From positions 1-5,993 of the forward strand of contig JAEDOJ010000100.1 in NCBI GenBank assembly GCA_016302015.1: 5,993 nt of DNA, read 5' to 3'. Below, in pieces: positions 1,045-5,993 of this stretch. This DNA comes from Oscillospiraceae bacterium. Lineage in GTDB: Bacteria > Bacillota_A > Clostridia > Oscillospirales > Oscillospiraceae. The notes beneath the pieces were generated by a model. It was not told the origin of the DNA and ran no database searches. It was given only the letters and a program-made list of their open reading frames with translations. A program made the position numbers and the translations under genes. Each line of letters begins with the position of its first letter. Positions within the stretch are counted from its first letter, which is position 1.

Positions 1045-2400
1045 TCATTTATATAAATATGTATCGCAGACCCGGCGGGCTTCTTCTGCCAGCACCGGCT
1101 CGTCCACGGACACCAGATGTCCCTGCTCCACGGTGACTCTGCCGTTGACCACGGTATAGTCCACCGCACCCCGGAGACCCACAGTGCCGAACACATTTTT
1201 GGGGTCGTAGACTGCGCCCACCAGCTCCAGACGGCGGGAATCCACCAAAAAGAAGTCGGCGCATTTTCCTACCTCAATGGAGCCGATATCCGTTCTGCCC
1301 AGCAGGGAAGCGGAGCCTCTGGTGGCCATTTTCAGCACATCATAGCCGCTGGGGGCTCTGGAGGAGGAGTTCAGACGATGGAGAAGGAAGCAAATCCGAA
1401 GCTCCTCCAGCAGATTGGAGCCGTCCTGAGAGGCGGAGCCGTCCACCGCCAGACCGACCCGCACGCCCCGCTCCAGCATATCCGGAATCCGGGCGATGCC
1501 GGAGGACAGCTTCATATTGGAAACCGGGCAGTGGGCCACGCCGGTGCCGGTCTGCGCCAGAAGGTCCAGTTCCCGGTCGTTGAAGTGAATGCCGTGGGCA
1601 TACCATACGTCCGAGCCGATCCATCCCAGACTTGCCATATAGTCCAGAGGCCGCAGCCCGCAGCGGTCGAGGGTGTAGTTTTCCTCGTCCCTGGTTTCGC
1701 ACAGATGGGTGTGGAGACGGACGCCGTACTGCCGTGCAAGAATGGCAGACTGCTTCAGCAGATTTGCGGAAACGGAGAAGGGAGAACAGGGCGCCAGAAC
1801 AATCTGACGCATGGAGCCAAAGGAAGGATCGTGATACTTCTCAATCAGTCTGGCGCTGTCCGCCATGATTTCGTCTACGGTCTGCACCACGCTGTCCGGG
1901 GGCAGACCCCCGTCCTTAACGGACAAATCCATGCTGCCCCGGGAGGAGACCATTCTCATCCCCAGAAGTCCGGCGGCATTGAGCTGTGCGCCGATCAAAT
2001 CCCCCGCATCGTGGGGAAAAACATAGTGATGATCAAAGCAGGTGGTGCAGCCGTTTTTCATCAGCTCCCCCAGCCCGGTGAGGGTGGAATAGTGGATTAC
2101 CTGTTCATCCAGATTTTTCCAAATTTCATAAAGGGTTCTGAGCCAGTCAAACAGCTCCATGTTCTGAACCTGGGGCAGGTTTCTGGAAAACTGCTGATAC
2201 AGATGGTGATGGGTGTTGATCAGGCCGGGATAGCAGAGGAAATGGGTGCCGTCGATCTCCCGGTCGGCCTTTTGGGGCAGATTTTTCCCAATGGCACGGA
2301 TGACGCCGTCCTCGCAGTACAGATCCACCTGCTTCGCCACGGTATCGTGGTCATCACAGGTGACAAGAGCGGACAGATTTCGGATGAGTAAGCCGGACAT
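1045..2400 (-). CDS. Amidohydrolase, probable 8-oxoguanine deaminase (451 aa)
   Basis: This is a full-length cytosolic amidohydrolase of the guanine/cytosine deaminase group. Metal-site and catalytic residues are all in place: HxH at His64/His66 (NTHHHLYQ), His232 and Glu235 in HTHLCE, His269 in WYAHGIHF, and Asp320 in AVDGSAS. Further landmarks are CFDHHYVFP (121-129), SRGSMDLS with DGGLPPDS (153-170), LAPCSPFSVS (202-211) and VAHCPVSNMKLSSGI (288-302). The SRGSMDLS..DGGLPPD stretch is what I associate with 8-oxoguanine deaminase, which hydrolyses 8-oxoguanine to urate and ammonia. Related hydrolases (AtzB-like, SsnA, guanine deaminase) share the fold, so the exact substrate is inferred. The N-terminal (1-56) and C-terminal (from about 370) segments form the usual composite beta-sandwich. 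The start has a strong AGGAGG site, the gene follows the GTPase-NYN gene by 14 bases, and it is the last gene before the terminator. Confidence 0.82.
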   Translation of the reverse strand: MSGLLIRNLSALVTCDDHDTVAKQVDLYCEDGVIRAIGKNLPQKADREIDGTHFLCYPGLINTHHHLYQQFSRNLPQVQNMELFDWLRTLYEIWKNLDEQVIHYSTLTGLGELMKNGCTTCFDHHYVFPHDAGDLIGAQLNAAGLLGMRMVSSRGSMDLSVKDGGLPPDSVVQTVDEIMADSARLIEKYHDPSFGSMRQIVLAPCSPFSVSANLLKQSAILARQYGVRLHTHLCETRDEENYTLDRCGLRPLDYMASLGWIGSDVWYAHGIHFNDRELDLLAQTGTGVAHCPVSNMKLSSGIARIPDMLERGVRVGLAVDGSASQDGSNLLEELRICFLLHRLNSSSRAPSGYDVLKMATRGSASLLGRTDIGSIEVGKCADFFLVDSRRLELVGAVYDPKNVFGTVGLRGAVDYTVVNGRVTVEQGHLVSVDEPVLAEEARRVCDTYLYK

Positions 2401-2414: not shown

Positions 2415-4997
2415 TCAGTGAATGGGAATGGAACGAAGGGGATTATTCTGAATGGAAGCCCGCTTGGCTTCCTCATGAAGCTGACGAATGACAACGGCGA
2501 TTTTTTCGTTGACCTGCTGGATTTCCGTTAAAAATTCCTTGGCGGAGACCCGCAGGACGCCGCTGCGCAGAGCGGAAAGCTGAATCAGGGCGTCGGAGGT
2601 GGCGACCCGCACGGAATAATTCCGACCGATTTGTCCCACAAGGGTTTCGATATAAAGGTCTGCGCTTTCGTTTTCTCTGGTGTAGACAACCTTCAGAGAA
2701 TTGTGTCTGGTTTTGGAGCCTGCGCCGCCCTTGACCCGGTAGCTGTCGAAGACAACCACCAGCTCACAGGGATGGTAGCCGCAATAGTTGCTGAGGATGT
2801 CCAGCAACCGCTCTCTTGCTCCCGCCAGATCGGTCTGCGCCTGCTCCCGCAGGCCGTCCCATGCAAAAATCATATTGTAGCCGTCCACGATCAGATATTC
2901 CTTCTTTTTGGGCGGCAGGGTGATTTCAGAAGCTTCCGCCTTGGGAACGGGACGATGCAAAACCCGCTTCTCCGGGCCGAATTCCCGCCGGATAATCTCC
3001 TGAAGGGCCTTTTCGTCCAGGTCCAGATTCCGGGTTTGCACCCGAACCGGAGGCGGAGCCTCCTCCTTCGGCGTCTGCAGCACGCTCTCCAGATGCATAT
3101 GAGAGAAAACCTGAGACCATTTTACGTTAAAACCACCGCCGTGGGCGCAAAAAACAGAATCCGGTGTGTTCTCTGTGTCCGCTTCCGGGTCGTAGGCGGC
3201 CTCTGCAATGACGGCTTCGGCATTGTGACAGGGGGCGTAGCCCTCCACCCGGCAGATCAGCTTCCCTCTGCCGTGGGTGTAGGACACCACCTGCGCCATA
3301 TAGTCCTGCATTTCCGCCACCGGGGCGGTGCCCTCCAGACGCATATTGCCCTGATCGTCCTCCGGGGAGGAAAACTCCCCGCCCATGGCACGGATGTCGT
3401 TGATGGCACGACCAATCTGCTCCGGGGGAACGGTTAATTCAAAATGATAATAGGGCTCCAGCAGAACGGTGTTCGCCTGCATCAGCCCCTGACGGACGGC
3501 ACGATAGGTGGCCTGACGGAAATCTCCGCCCTCCGTATGCTTTACATGGGCACGACCGGCGGCAAGACTGATTTTCATATCCGTGATGGGGGAGCCGGTG
3601 AGGACGCCCAGATGGGTCTTTTCCCCGAGATGGGTGAGAATCAGCCGCTGCCAGTTCCGATCCAGAGCGTCCTCGCTGCAAACGGAAGCAAATTGGAGAC
3701 CGCTGCCCCGGGGCAGAGGCTCCAAAACGAAATGCACCTCCGCATAGTGTCGCAGGGGCTCAAAATGCCCCACGCCCTCCACCGGTTCCAAAATCGTTTC
3801 CCGGTAGGAGACCCGTCCGCTGTCGATAACAACCTCCAGATCGTATCGCTCCCGGATGAGGCTTTCCAGCACCTCGATTTGAACCTGACCCATGAGCTGG
3901 GCGTGGATTTCCCGCAGGCGTTCGTCCCAGACGATGCGAAGCTGGGGCTCTTCCTCCTCCAGCTGCTTCAGCTTTTCCAGAGCGGGACGAACCTCCGTGC
4001 CCAGGGGCAGACGAAGGCGGTAAGACATCACGGGAGTCAGCAGGGGAGGCGGGGCGGCCTTGGCAGAGCCCAGACAGTCTCCCGCCACAAGACCGGAAAG
4101 CCCGGTCACGGCGCAGACGGTGCCGGAGGAAGCCTCCTCCACCTGGGTGAAATTCACCCCGGAGTAGAGACGAATCTGGCTGACCTTTTCCTCCAGCTCC
4201 ACGCCCTCCCCGGAGGTATATTTTAATGAGGTACGCACCCTCAGACTGCCGCCGGTGACCTTCAGGAAGGTCAGACGGTGACCCTGGGGGTCCCGGGCGA
4301 TCTTATAGACTCTTGCGCTGAAGTCCTCCGGGTAATACGGCTCGGCGGTGCAGTCCTCCAGAGCGGAAAGCAGGTCATCCACCCCTTCCAGCTTCAGGGC
4401 AGAGCCGAAAAGACAGGGGAACATCAGCTCCCGCTGAATCAGGTCTGTGAGTTGGGCGTGGGTGACCGTTCCGGTTTCCAGATACTGCTCCAGAACCGCC
4501 TCGTCGCACAGAGCGGCGGCTTCCTGATCCTCCAGCGCCATGCACTGGCTGCTTAAATGCGCCTTGACATCCCGCAGCAGCCTGTCCCGGTCCGCGCCGG
4601 GAAGATCCATCTTATTAAAGAAAAGAAAGGTAGGAATATGATACCGACGGAGCAACCGCCACAGGGTTTCCGTGTGTCCCTGAACGCTGTCGGTGCCGCT
4701 GATCACGAGGATGGCGTAATCCAGCACCTGCATGGTGCGCTCCGCCTCCGGAGAAAAATCCACATGACCGGGGGTGTCCAGCAGAGTGACGGAGAGGTTG
4801 GGGGTGGAGAACCGTGCCTGCTTGGAAAAAATGGTGATGCCCCGGCTGCGCTCCAGAGCAAAATGATCCAGAAAGGCGTCGCCATGATCCACCCTGCCCA
4901 GCCTTTTTACCTGACCGGTGCGATAGAGCAGGGCTTCGGAAAGGGTGGTCTTTCCGGCGTCCACCTGAGCGAAAATGCCAATGGTAATTTGCTTCAT
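2415..4997 (-). CDS. TetM/EF-G-like ribosomal GTPase fused to a C-terminal YacP/Rae1-like NYN domain (860 aa)
   Basis: The N-terminal GTPase has G1 AQVDAGKT (10-17), switch I ERSRGITI (49-56), G3 DTPGH with the catalytic-type His78 (74-78), G4 NKMD (128-131) and a G5 GSA (198-200). Domains II-V of the TetM/EF-G type follow to about residue 590. Tet(M) is about 640 residues; this protein continues through a linker (about 640-697) into an NYN/PIN-like domain (about 699-845). That domain has VDGYNMI (Asp705), VVFDSYRV (Asp751), YTRENESAD (Asp780) and VATSD (Asp802), the pattern of YacP/Rae1, which cuts mRNA in the ribosomal A site in Bacillus. The domain IV tip (479-494) lacks the Tyr-Ser-Pro-Val signature of Tet(M), so a drug resistance call is not supported. 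It starts three bases after gerW with a weak GGAAG site, implying translational coupling. The domains are certain; a role in ribosome surveillance or rescue is inference. Confidence 0.92.
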   Translation of the reverse strand: MKQITIGIFAQVDAGKTTLSEALLYRTGQVKRLGRVDHGDAFLDHFALERSRGITIFSKQARFSTPNLSVTLLDTPGHVDFSPEAERTMQVLDYAILVISGTDSVQGHTETLWRLLRRYHIPTFLFFNKMDLPGADRDRLLRDVKAHLSSQCMALEDQEAAALCDEAVLEQYLETGTVTHAQLTDLIQRELMFPCLFGSALKLEGVDDLLSALEDCTAEPYYPEDFSARVYKIARDPQGHRLTFLKVTGGSLRVRTSLKYTSGEGVELEEKVSQIRLYSGVNFTQVEEASSGTVCAVTGLSGLVAGDCLGSAKAAPPPLLTPVMSYRLRLPLGTEVRPALEKLKQLEEEEPQLRIVWDERLREIHAQLMGQVQIEVLESLIRERYDLEVVIDSGRVSYRETILEPVEGVGHFEPLRHYAEVHFVLEPLPRGSGLQFASVCSEDALDRNWQRLILTHLGEKTHLGVLTGSPITDMKISLAAGRAHVKHTEGGDFRQATYRAVRQGLMQANTVLLEPYYHFELTVPPEQIGRAINDIRAMGGEFSSPEDDQGNMRLEGTAPVAEMQDYMAQVVSYTHGRGKLICRVEGYAPCHNAEAVIAEAAYDPEADTENTPDSVFCAHGGGFNVKWSQVFSHMHLESVLQTPKEEAPPPVRVQTRNLDLDEKALQEIIRREFGPEKRVLHRPVPKAEASEITLPPKKKEYLIVDGYNMIFAWDGLREQAQTDLAGARERLLDILSNYCGYHPCELVVVFDSYRVKGGAGSKTRHNSLKVVYTRENESADLYIETLVGQIGRNYSVRVATSDALIQLSALRSGVLRVSAKEFLTEIQQVNEKIAVVIRQLHEEAKRASIQNNPLRSIPIH

Positions 4998-5000
4998 GGA

Positions 5001-5387
5001 TTATTCTTCCACGGCCTCTTCGGCGCTCTTGTCGTCCTTTTTGAATTTTTCCTGAAGCTGGGAAACCAGAGGAAGCAGAGCGCTGATGATGCCCTTCTTT
5101 TCGGTCTCCTCTTCGGAGACCCTCAGAACCTTCACCTCCGAGCCGCAGACGGCAAGGAAGGTCAGAGGAGTCTTGGTAATTTTTACACCGGCGCCGGCCA
5201 TGATGCCGTCCGCCTTTTTCTTTGCGGCAAGGTCAGAGCCGCCGCCGGTAAAGCCGCAGGACAGCTTGGCAACGGGGATCACGGTCACGTCGCCGATGAC
5301 GATGGGGGCTTCGGTGACAGACTGCTGTGCGGAAAGCTCCTTCGCCTGCTGGGCGGTGAATTCAAATACCTTCAAAAGCTCATTCAT
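5001..5387 (-). CDS. gerW: GerW family sporulation protein (YtfJ), 128 aa
   Basis: This is a small soluble protein of the GerW/YtfJ family, close to the usual length of about 130-150 residues. The core motifs are present: IGDVTVIPVAKLSCGFTGGGSD (31-52), the alanine/glycine-rich AGAGVKITKTPLTFLAV (64-80) and EVKVLRV (84-90), followed by a hydrophobic and then strongly charged C-terminal tail (99-128). In Bacillus subtilis the family member is made during sporulation and is needed for normal germination responses; its biochemistry is not established. The start at 5387 overlaps the upstream DUF2953 stop in an ATGA (5384-5387), with AGAAGG nine bases upstream at 5397-5402. The DUF2953-gerW pair is a conserved arrangement in spore formers, which supports both calls. 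I see no signal peptide. Confidence 0.92.
   Translation of the reverse strand: MNELLKVFEFTAQQAKELSAQQSVTEAPIVIGDVTVIPVAKLSCGFTGGGSDLAAKKKADGIMAGAGVKITKTPLTFLAVCGSEVKVLRVSEEETEKKGIISALLPLVSQLQEKFKKDDKSAEEAVEE
5006..5010 (-). promoter_or_regulatory. Weak ribosome binding site of the GTPase-NYN gene, inside the gerW 3' end
   Basis: On the minus strand this is GGAAG, eight bases before the ATG at 4997, lying within the last codons of gerW. The poor match and the three-base gap between gerW's stop (5001-5003) and this start suggest re-initiation by ribosomes finishing gerW. The start is also fixed by homology: MKQITIGIFAQVDAGKT begins just as Tet(M) and EF-G proteins do. Confidence 0.6.
5384..5387 (-). 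promoter_or_regulatory. ATGA stop-start overlap coupling DUF2953 and gerW
   Basis: On the minus strand the bases read ATGA: the gerW start codon ATG overlaps the TGA stop of the DUF2953 gene. Such overlaps usually mean translational coupling. An AGAAGG site at 5397-5402, nine bases from the ATG, is moderate in strength. Confidence 0.85.
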
Positions 5388-5993
5388 GTCTTGGCGCCTT
5401 CTTTCTTGAGAGATTGTTTGAGATAGCGGCCGAACAGGCCGAGGAGGAATGCGACAAACGTCCGGGGACGGTAGTTCAATTGCCCGTCAAAGCGGACGGT
5501 GGAGGCTTCCCGGGTAAAATCGCAGCGGATGTTGACGGAACGTTTTTTGAATTTCATGGTATCCTCCAGCAGGGTCAGCAGAGGATAGACGGCGGCGCAG
5601 ACCGCACCGTAGGAAAAGGCGGCGTCGGCGGCGTCGCTGTCACCGACTACGATTTCCAACTCAAATTTGCGGAAAACTCCTTTTTTCACCACACCGAAGA
5701 TTCTGCCGAACAGGTCCCGCACTGCGGCGAAGACGCTGCCGATGGTTGCAACCAGACCGTTTTCGCTGATGGACTGTCTGGCCCTGGCGGCGGTGCTGAT
5801 CTCATCAAAGCCCAAAAAGGACAACAGGGTGGAAGCAGCGGAGCTCTTGGATTTTTTCTTCCCCTTCGGGGGAGCCGGCGCAGCTTCCTGCGTTGGCTCT
5901 CTGGGCGGCTTCTCGCTGTCCGCCAGGGTGAAAAACAGATATTTGACCCGGTACTGCAGCTCTGCCTCCGGATCATAGCGGAGGTAAATCCGC
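5384..5993 (-). CDS. DUF2953 domain protein, YtfI-like (partial, N-terminus off right edge)
   Basis: The frame stays open from the stop at 5384 to the right edge, giving 202 visible residues beginning RIYLRYDPEAELQYRVKYLF. That opening strand pair matches the early part of DUF2953 proteins, which usually begin with a membrane helix, so perhaps a few tens of residues are missing. A charged, proline- and lysine-rich linker (visible residues about 27-52) follows. The DUF2953 core comes next, with VVKKGVFRKFELEIVVGDSD, then AAFSYGAVCAAVYPLLTLLE, and a typical ending in DFTREASTVRFDGQLNYRPR. The last part, TFVAFLLGLFGRYLKQ, is hydrophobic and then basic and may contact the membrane. A TTG at 5822-5824 is an in-frame codon, not the start. 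Position directly before gerW is diagnostic. The function is unknown beyond its association with sporulation genes. Confidence 0.85.
   Translation of the reverse strand, partial: RIYLRYDPEAELQYRVKYLFFTLADSEKPPREPTQEAAPAPPKGKKKSKSSAASTLLSFLGFDEISTAARARQSISENGLVATIGSVFAAVRDLFGRIFGVVKKGVFRKFELEIVVGDSDAADAAFSYGAVCAAVYPLLTLLEDTMKFKKRSVNIRCDFTREASTVRFDGQLNYRPRTFVAFLLGLFGRYLKQSLKKEGAKT

Follow-up and report, generated by a model that had tools for sequence, protein, structure and literature searches.

The fusion gene and its product

The DNA analysed here (the window) is a 5,993-nucleotide stretch, positions 1 to 5,993 of contig JAEDOJ010000100.1 in the Oscillospiraceae bacterium assembly GCA_016302015.1. 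It includes a gene for a single-chain protein that joins a translational-GTPase-like part to a YacP/Rae1-type NYN nuclease domain (Table 1). An open reading frame scan of the window gave an uninterrupted frame of 860 amino acids for this gene, with an ATG start. An earlier note on this DNA had described complete GTPase motifs and, after domain V, a complete NYN domain with four conserved aspartates, and both descriptions hold. The G domain contains a P-loop at residues 10 to 18 (AQVDAGKT, 10 to 17), switch I RGITI at 52 to 56, DTPGH at 74 to 78, and NKMD at 128 to 131. The NYN_YacP match in Pfam (E 4.7e-42, 144.2 bits against a cut-off of 24.6) follows domain V after a gap of ~110 residues, and Asp705, Asp751, Asp780, and Asp802, the residues named in that note, align with the aspartates of Rae1.

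Table 1 Features of the window. Residue numbers refer to the fusion protein.
Feature	Position	Strand	Basis and remarks
F420-0:gamma-glutamyl ligase-like protein	3-890	minus	Pfam, 116.4 bits
8-oxoguanine deaminase-like amidohydrolase, downstream neighbour	1045..2400	minus	565.5 bits vs cut-off 532; 4/80 loci
Fusion gene, translational-GTPase-like part + YacP/Rae1-type NYN nuclease domain	2415..4997	minus	Open reading frame, Pfam, homologues
NYN_YacP (Rae1-type) nuclease domain, residues 702-846	2460..2894	minus	Pfam, structure comparison
Asp802 codon, presumed catalytic	2592..2594	minus	D in 79/79
Asp780 codon, presumed catalytic	2658..2660	minus	D in 79/79
Asp751 codon, presumed catalytic	2745..2747	minus	D in 79/79
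Asp705 codon, presumed catalytic	2883..2885	minus	D in 79/79
Linker, residues 641-698	2904..3077	minus	Low-confidence model region
C-terminal extension, residues 590-640 (CHN ... SVFC.HG.G..V.W..V...MH)	3078..3230	minus	Model and alignments
Domain V, residues 511-593	3219..3467	minus	Pfam EFG_C
Domain IV, residues 394-509	3471..3818	minus	Pfam EFG_IV; conservation across loci
Domain IV tip, residues 484-494 (H.KHTEGGDFR)	3516..3548	minus	Alignments
Domain III, residues 340-391	3825..3980	minus	Weak Pfam match, 19.6 bits vs cut-off 27
Domain II, residues 226-309	4071..4322	minus	Pfam EF-G_D2
G domain, residues 1-217	4347..4997	minus	Pfam GTP_EFTU 3-217, 5.7e-48
YtfJ-like sporulation protein, upstream neighbour	5001..5387	minus	37.7 bits, NCBIfam cut-off 116.3; 6/80 loci
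DUF2953 protein, upstream neighbour, runs off window	5384..5992	minus	Pfam; 5/80 loci

The GTPase part has the domain order of EF-G. Despite its score below the Pfam cut-off, the fold of domain III is backed by structure comparison, and at the tip of domain IV His484 aligns with His573 of Thermus thermophilus EF-G. The nearest solved relatives of this part are ribosome-bound EF-G and TetM, and most of the top matches by structure are factors on 70S ribosomes, with mitochondrial 39S complexes also among them. The protein stays below the cut-offs of the curated models: the best, for tetracycline ribosomal protection, scores 418.6 bits against a cut-off of 775, other models of the TetM group score 286.9 against 1100 and 241.7 against 1420, and two EF-G models score 272.2 against 659.4 and 325.6 against 583. 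EF-G-like genes of ~700 amino acids are present besides the fusion, some members of which are named TetM-type in databases. These comparisons indicate that the GTPase is a type of its own, apart from TetM and EF-G, and that it should not be filed as TetM.

Structure prediction, proposed by the earlier note as a means of seeing whether the nuclease reaches mRNA, recovered both folded parts. In the full-length model (57 sequences; predicted local distance difference test score, pLDDT, 81.9; predicted template modelling score, pTM, 0.56), the GTPase and its C-terminal extension are ordered to about residue 640 and the NYN domain is mostly confident. The linker between them is disordered, with pLDDT <50 at residues 644 to 660 and 673 to 697 and a short helix at 662 to 673. 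By arithmetic, at ~3.6 Å per residue, 58 residues fully stretched would span ~200 Å, so reach should not limit the NYN domain; because the linker is flexible, the model does not decide whether the domain contacts mRNA. The C-terminal extension is common to the fusion and to relatives that lack the NYN domain. In both groups Cys590, Cys617, and His635 of this extension are invariant or near-invariant and His591 is frequent, and these residues are a possible metal site.

The fusion is conserved and fits a single origin

A genome scan yielded 157 relatives, of which the best 80 loci were kept. All 80 contain the fusion as one chain, 77 of them complete in one open frame; two loci are cut by contig ends (L039 and L076), and in a third (L075) the open frame starts within the G domain. 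Precomputed domain assignments gave both NYN_YacP and GTPase domains in all 120 listed homologues, the best 120 of 7,996 scored. A chance product or mis-join of neighbouring genes is ruled out by these one-chain loci and database homologues. Judged by their record titles, carriers include Anaerobutyricum hallii, Mediterraneibacter, Blautia, Extibacter, and many Oscillospiraceae.

A survey for co-conservation of the two active sites, suggested in the earlier note, found both intact in the loci that could be read. The four NYN aspartates are invariant in the 79 homologues that reach that far, and the motif residues of the G domain are near-invariant: among the kept loci, the P-loop lysine and threonine are present in 78/78 and DTPGH in 79/79, and the first position of NKMD is asparagine in 71 and threonine in nine of the 80.

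In trees of the GTPase part, 39 fused rows, drawn from 31 of the 80 loci, seven others, and the window, form one clade with full support in the Shimodaira–Hasegawa-like approximate likelihood ratio test (SH-aLRT). Its sister group, with support 98, consists of NYN-less proteins from two YacP-less genomes (G198 and G308), and all 20 NYN-less rows lie outside the fused clade. These are quick trees, made in two versions, one of which leaves out four of the NYN-less rows. The tree of the NYN domain is less resolved; it does not reject a single fused clade (approximately unbiased test, p-AU 0.58), and it places one stand-alone copy (L130, from genome G229) among the fused domains. Taken together, the trees are compatible with the fusion having arisen once. 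That G198 and G308 had the NYN domain and later lost it is unsupported, as their proteins branch outside the fused clade, as sister to it; inspection by eye of the printed part of a three-frame translation 3' of their GTPase genes revealed no NYN motif.

Genome G229 has an unfused pair, consisting of the YacP gene L130 (3787-4308) and a separate NYN-less GTPase gene, L113 (2987-4936). The YacP gene adjoins an Mntp-type gene, lies away from rlmB, and groups with the fused NYN domains. The pair could be either a fusion that has since split or a survivor from before the two genes were joined.

The fusion appears to take the place of stand-alone yacP

We surveyed NYN_YacP domains across 393 evenly sampled Clostridia genomes of nominally 90% completeness. 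The domain is present in 250 genomes, in 249 above the cut-off, and 245 have a single match. Only one of the five genomes with more than one match, G304, has an intact stand-alone copy besides the fusion; in G140, G194, and G228 the additional matches score below the cut-off, and in G390 they are fragments. Frame length separated 150 listed genomes into 81 with the fusion (≥700 amino acids), 65 with a stand-alone protein (≤220), and four unclear cases, and a re-scan of 80 further genomes, which covered all but 20 of the 250, gave 41 fused (≥600), 35 stand-alone, and four unclear, bringing the totals to 122 fused genomes including G304 and 100 stand-alone. Therefore, 365 of the 393 genomes are classified and 28 are left unclassified: 121 have the fusion alone, 100 the stand-alone gene alone, one has both, and 143 have neither (Fisher p ~3e-20 for mutual exclusion, uncorrected for kinship). 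A separate count found exactly one NYN_YacP domain, the fused one, in 20/20 fused genomes.

In L125 and in a C. difficile record, stand-alone yacP lies in the order cysS-RNase III-thyX-rlmB-yacP-sigH-tuf. We examined the rlmB region in 18 genomes: G229 and 17 that carry the fusion. In 16 of the 17 fused genomes, rlmB is not followed by an intact yacP, whereas G304 retains an intact copy there, and 14 of the 17 have no yacP match within 1,500 bases after rlmB. Decayed yacP follows rlmB in G390 (L140 2317-2609), in pieces matching residues 3 to 35 and 101 to 159, and in G117 (L147 2203-2322), in a piece matching residues 64 to 103. Since mrnC, cysS, or sigH adjoins rlmB in 14 of the 17 fused genomes, these sites are the right place to look; none of the three genes was found there in G001, G003, and G155, where the site is less sure. 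Absence or decay of yacP after rlmB is the pattern expected if another gene took over its function and the old gene then decayed. The near-exclusion across genomes (the two intact together in 1 of 365) and the rlmB sites both agree with the loss of stand-alone YacP that the earlier note had thought worth looking for, and suggest, from gene content and order, that the fusion replaced a separate Rae1 gene in many Clostridia.

NYN-less relatives of the GTPase

GTPases with the same tip but no NYN domain are found in Clostridia, Paenibacillus, and Ligilactobacillus, and some are annotated as TetM-type. We checked 65 of the 100 genomes with stand-alone YacP and found an NYN-less GTPase of the same type in 19, compared with 7 of the 143 genomes without any YacP (Fisher p 3e-6, uncorrected); a twentieth protein in the first group, from G396, is of a more distant type and is not counted. 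No second, NYN-less GTPase accompanies the fusion in any of the 10 fused genomes checked. The fusion therefore stands in for two genes that are found separately elsewhere.

An NYN-less relative on plasmid pMP118 of Ligilactobacillus salivarius, a megaplasmid (L169 5968-7902), adjoins a copy of rpsN. Its product is 41% identical to a clostridial NYN-less protein (L110) and is annotated as TetM-type tetracycline resistance. L. salivarius records make up 21 of the 25 rows listed in the plasmid search, at ~41% identity.

Neighbouring genes and mobile-element records

The stop codon of the YtfJ-like gene lies 3 bases before the ATG of the fusion, a spacing that makes it probable that the two share one transcript, and the deaminase-like gene begins 14 bases past the fusion stop. 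No conserved operon partner of the fusion was found among the 80 loci, whose flanks differ in length; the most frequent other neighbour family occurs in 28 of the 80, at no fixed position. The F420 ligase-like protein, which lies in a clostridial context, reaches ~30 bits where the NCBIfam CofE models require at least 180. At 1016-1042, a hairpin with a T-rich stretch after it may mark a transcript end, with the promoter and terminator scans of the window near chance level overall. No RNA families or tRNAs were found in the window.

The fusion occurs in 2 of 72,556 plasmid records, and it is also carried by two unverified 'Bacteriophage sp.' records (L177, MT835563.1, and L178, MT835514.1). 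Ten of the 25 listed open reading frames of the latter were scanned, one of them the fusion itself. Genes for tRNA synthetase, transport, or metabolism turned up among the ten, but phage structural families did not; these records therefore look like bacterial contigs and are probably not phages. Spread of the fusion by plasmids or phages is accordingly rejected. Stand-alone yacP is found on 12 C. difficile 'plasmid' records. In the one whose gene order was read (L179, NZ_CP149721.1), it lies in a chromosome-typical cysS-rlmB-yacP-sigH-tuf-rpl region, and these records are therefore probably assembly pieces.

A possible ribosome-docking form of Rae1

Rae1 is described, in two papers, as an mRNA endonuclease that acts in the ribosomal A site (PMC12320835, PMC6613710). 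We consider the fusion to be a Rae1 with its own ribosome-docking GTPase that cuts mRNA on stalled ribosomes, with a probability of about 0.5. The earlier note had read the fusion as a GTP-driven, ribosome-targeted nuclease or rescue factor. That reading is supported in part, by domain content, the co-conserved active sites, Rae1 as the nearest fold, and the near-absence of an intact separate yacP from fused genomes; we infer the remainder, namely ribosome binding, cleavage and its position, and the timing of the cut by GTP hydrolysis. In the proposed mechanism, the EF-G/TetM-type GTPase would bind the factor site of a 70S ribosome with a free or blocked A site, the distinctive tip of domain IV would read the state of that site, and GTP hydrolysis would let domain IV leave. 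The NYN domain, on its flexible linker of ~58 residues, would then cut mRNA in or beside the A site, after which the stalled ribosome would be rescued and the message degraded. Domain IV of EF-G and TetM enters the decoding centre. The two parts could hardly share one A site, so docking, GTP hydrolysis, exit of domain IV, and cleavage would be the likeliest order; alternatively, the cut might fall on the side where mRNA enters, or on an adjacent ribosome that has collided. A more specific version of this mechanism, which we offer tentatively and think unlikely to be right in all its parts, is a 'clear and cut' rescue factor in which GTP hydrolysis clears or inspects the A site through the KHTEGGDFR tip before the tethered Rae1 acts. 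This factor would have displaced diffusible Rae1 a single time, in the common ancestor of all fused proteins, and would today be the sole Rae1 of many gut Clostridia.

Several observations weigh against a ribosome-docking Rae1. Domain IV in an EF-G/TetM fold goes to the place where Rae1 is described as acting. It is also the most conserved domain, with 58 of 116 columns at ≥95%, compared with 27 of 146 in the NYN domain. Most fused NYN domains have Phe711, Ala712, and Tyr753 where stand-alone copies have Asn, Ser, and His, and because these changes lie beside the active site, the specificity of the fused domain may differ from that of Rae1. NYN-less relatives are common, seven of them in genomes that lack YacP altogether, so the GTPase does not need the nuclease. 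Finally, if the fusion has a single origin, shared descent accounts for part of the exclusion between the fused and the stand-alone gene, and in some of the 393 genomes just eight candidates were scored, so that a second copy could be overlooked.

The strongest rival, which we regard as rather unlikely, is that the protein has two independent functions, a condition-specific translation factor carrying an ordinary Rae1 on a leash, with joint expression or proximity to the ribosome as the benefit and cleavage not controlled by GTP. In its favour are the wide distribution of NYN-less relatives, with two of them as sister to the fusion, the long disordered linker, and the unequal rates at which the domains evolve. 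However, no loss of the NYN domain is seen within the fused clade (0 of 20 NYN-less rows inside), and the intact state of both active sites in the readable loci fits joint use.

A protein that protects the ribosome from tetracycline or another drug, with the RNase added as a resistance mechanism (Atkinson 2015), is improbable. This role was proposed in PMC4342817, and it agrees with the TetM-type names of some members and with the lead of the tetracycline ribosomal protection model over the better EF-G model (418.6 against 325.6 bits). Yet all of the scores against TetM-group models are far below the curated cut-offs, the SPV stretch of TetM is replaced by VKH, the fusion has no conserved neighbour and is nearly absent from plasmids, and its broad presence together with the near-absence of yacP suggests a housekeeping role. 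A factor for ribosome assembly or stable RNA, with the GTPase on pre-ribosomal particles and the NYN domain trimming rRNA or tRNA, is the least probable of these explanations: NYN domains were once proposed to act in rRNA/tRNA maturation (Anantharaman and Aravind 2006, cited by PMC4342817), but the nearest characterised NYN protein is Rae1, described as an endonuclease acting on mRNA in the A site, and most of the best structure matches are bound to 70S ribosomes.

If the fusion is indeed a ribosome-docking Rae1, mRNA cleavage and a translation GTPase are coupled within a single protein in a large group of gut bacteria, and GTP hydrolysis could time the cutting of a stalled message, an arrangement of which the literature searched yielded no described case. 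Some gut 'tetracycline resistance' proteins would then be housekeeping mRNA-decay factors, and resistome counts would be affected.

Comparison with TetM, EF-G, Rae1, and reported fusions

TetM and TetO are likewise EF-G-like multidomain GTPases, and TetM is the top solved match by sequence (E 9.8e-76). The fusion differs from them in the tip of domain IV, in its extra C-terminal extension and nuclease, and in its rarity on plasmids. The stretch that reads SPV in loop III of TetM reads VKH in the fusion, with Lys486 and His487 present in 80/80 loci; the weight of this difference is limited by the finding, reported in PMC4750697, that TetM with a triple alanine change in the stretch is still active. 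EF-G is unlike the fusion in the loop that follows the tip histidine. The nearest solved relative of the NYN domain, Rae1/YacP of Bacillus subtilis (PDB 5mq8, 5mq9), has the same fold. Rae1 is a stand-alone protein whose clostridial counterpart is encoded after rlmB, whereas the fused NYN domain is the C-terminal part of a GTPase encoded at other loci.

The NYN-less clostridial GTPases share with the fusion the tip HTxGGDFR and the SVFC/SIFC...MH extension, in at least 15 of 16 rows at most positions; over residues 394 to 640 their identity to the window protein is 44-59% (35% for G396, which was set aside). They stop where the linker of the fusion starts and have no nuclease. The NYN-less L. 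salivarius and Paenibacillus examples have the same tip and C-terminal extension, with Lys486 replaced by Val and Glu, respectively.

The earlier note had spoken of similar architectures annotated merely as a GTPase or as tetracycline resistance, with no known description of a mechanism. TetM-type labels are indeed found, and the architecture was in print in 2015: a Tet-like GTPase with a YacP-like NYN domain was reported in ten Clostridiales species, and RNase-based resistance was suggested (Atkinson 2015, PMC4342817). No experimental follow-up of the fusion was found in the open-licence literature, and the main Rae1 papers may mention it. The NYN-fused clostridial 'Tet' proteins of PMC4342817 have the same domain content and architecture as the fusion described here and come from the same bacterial group; unlike the present analysis, the available text of that paper does not include a single origin, replacement of yacP, or a separate GTPase type. 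The architecture is therefore already published, and what our analysis adds to it is the apparent replacement of Rae1 and the assignment of the GTPase to a separate type.

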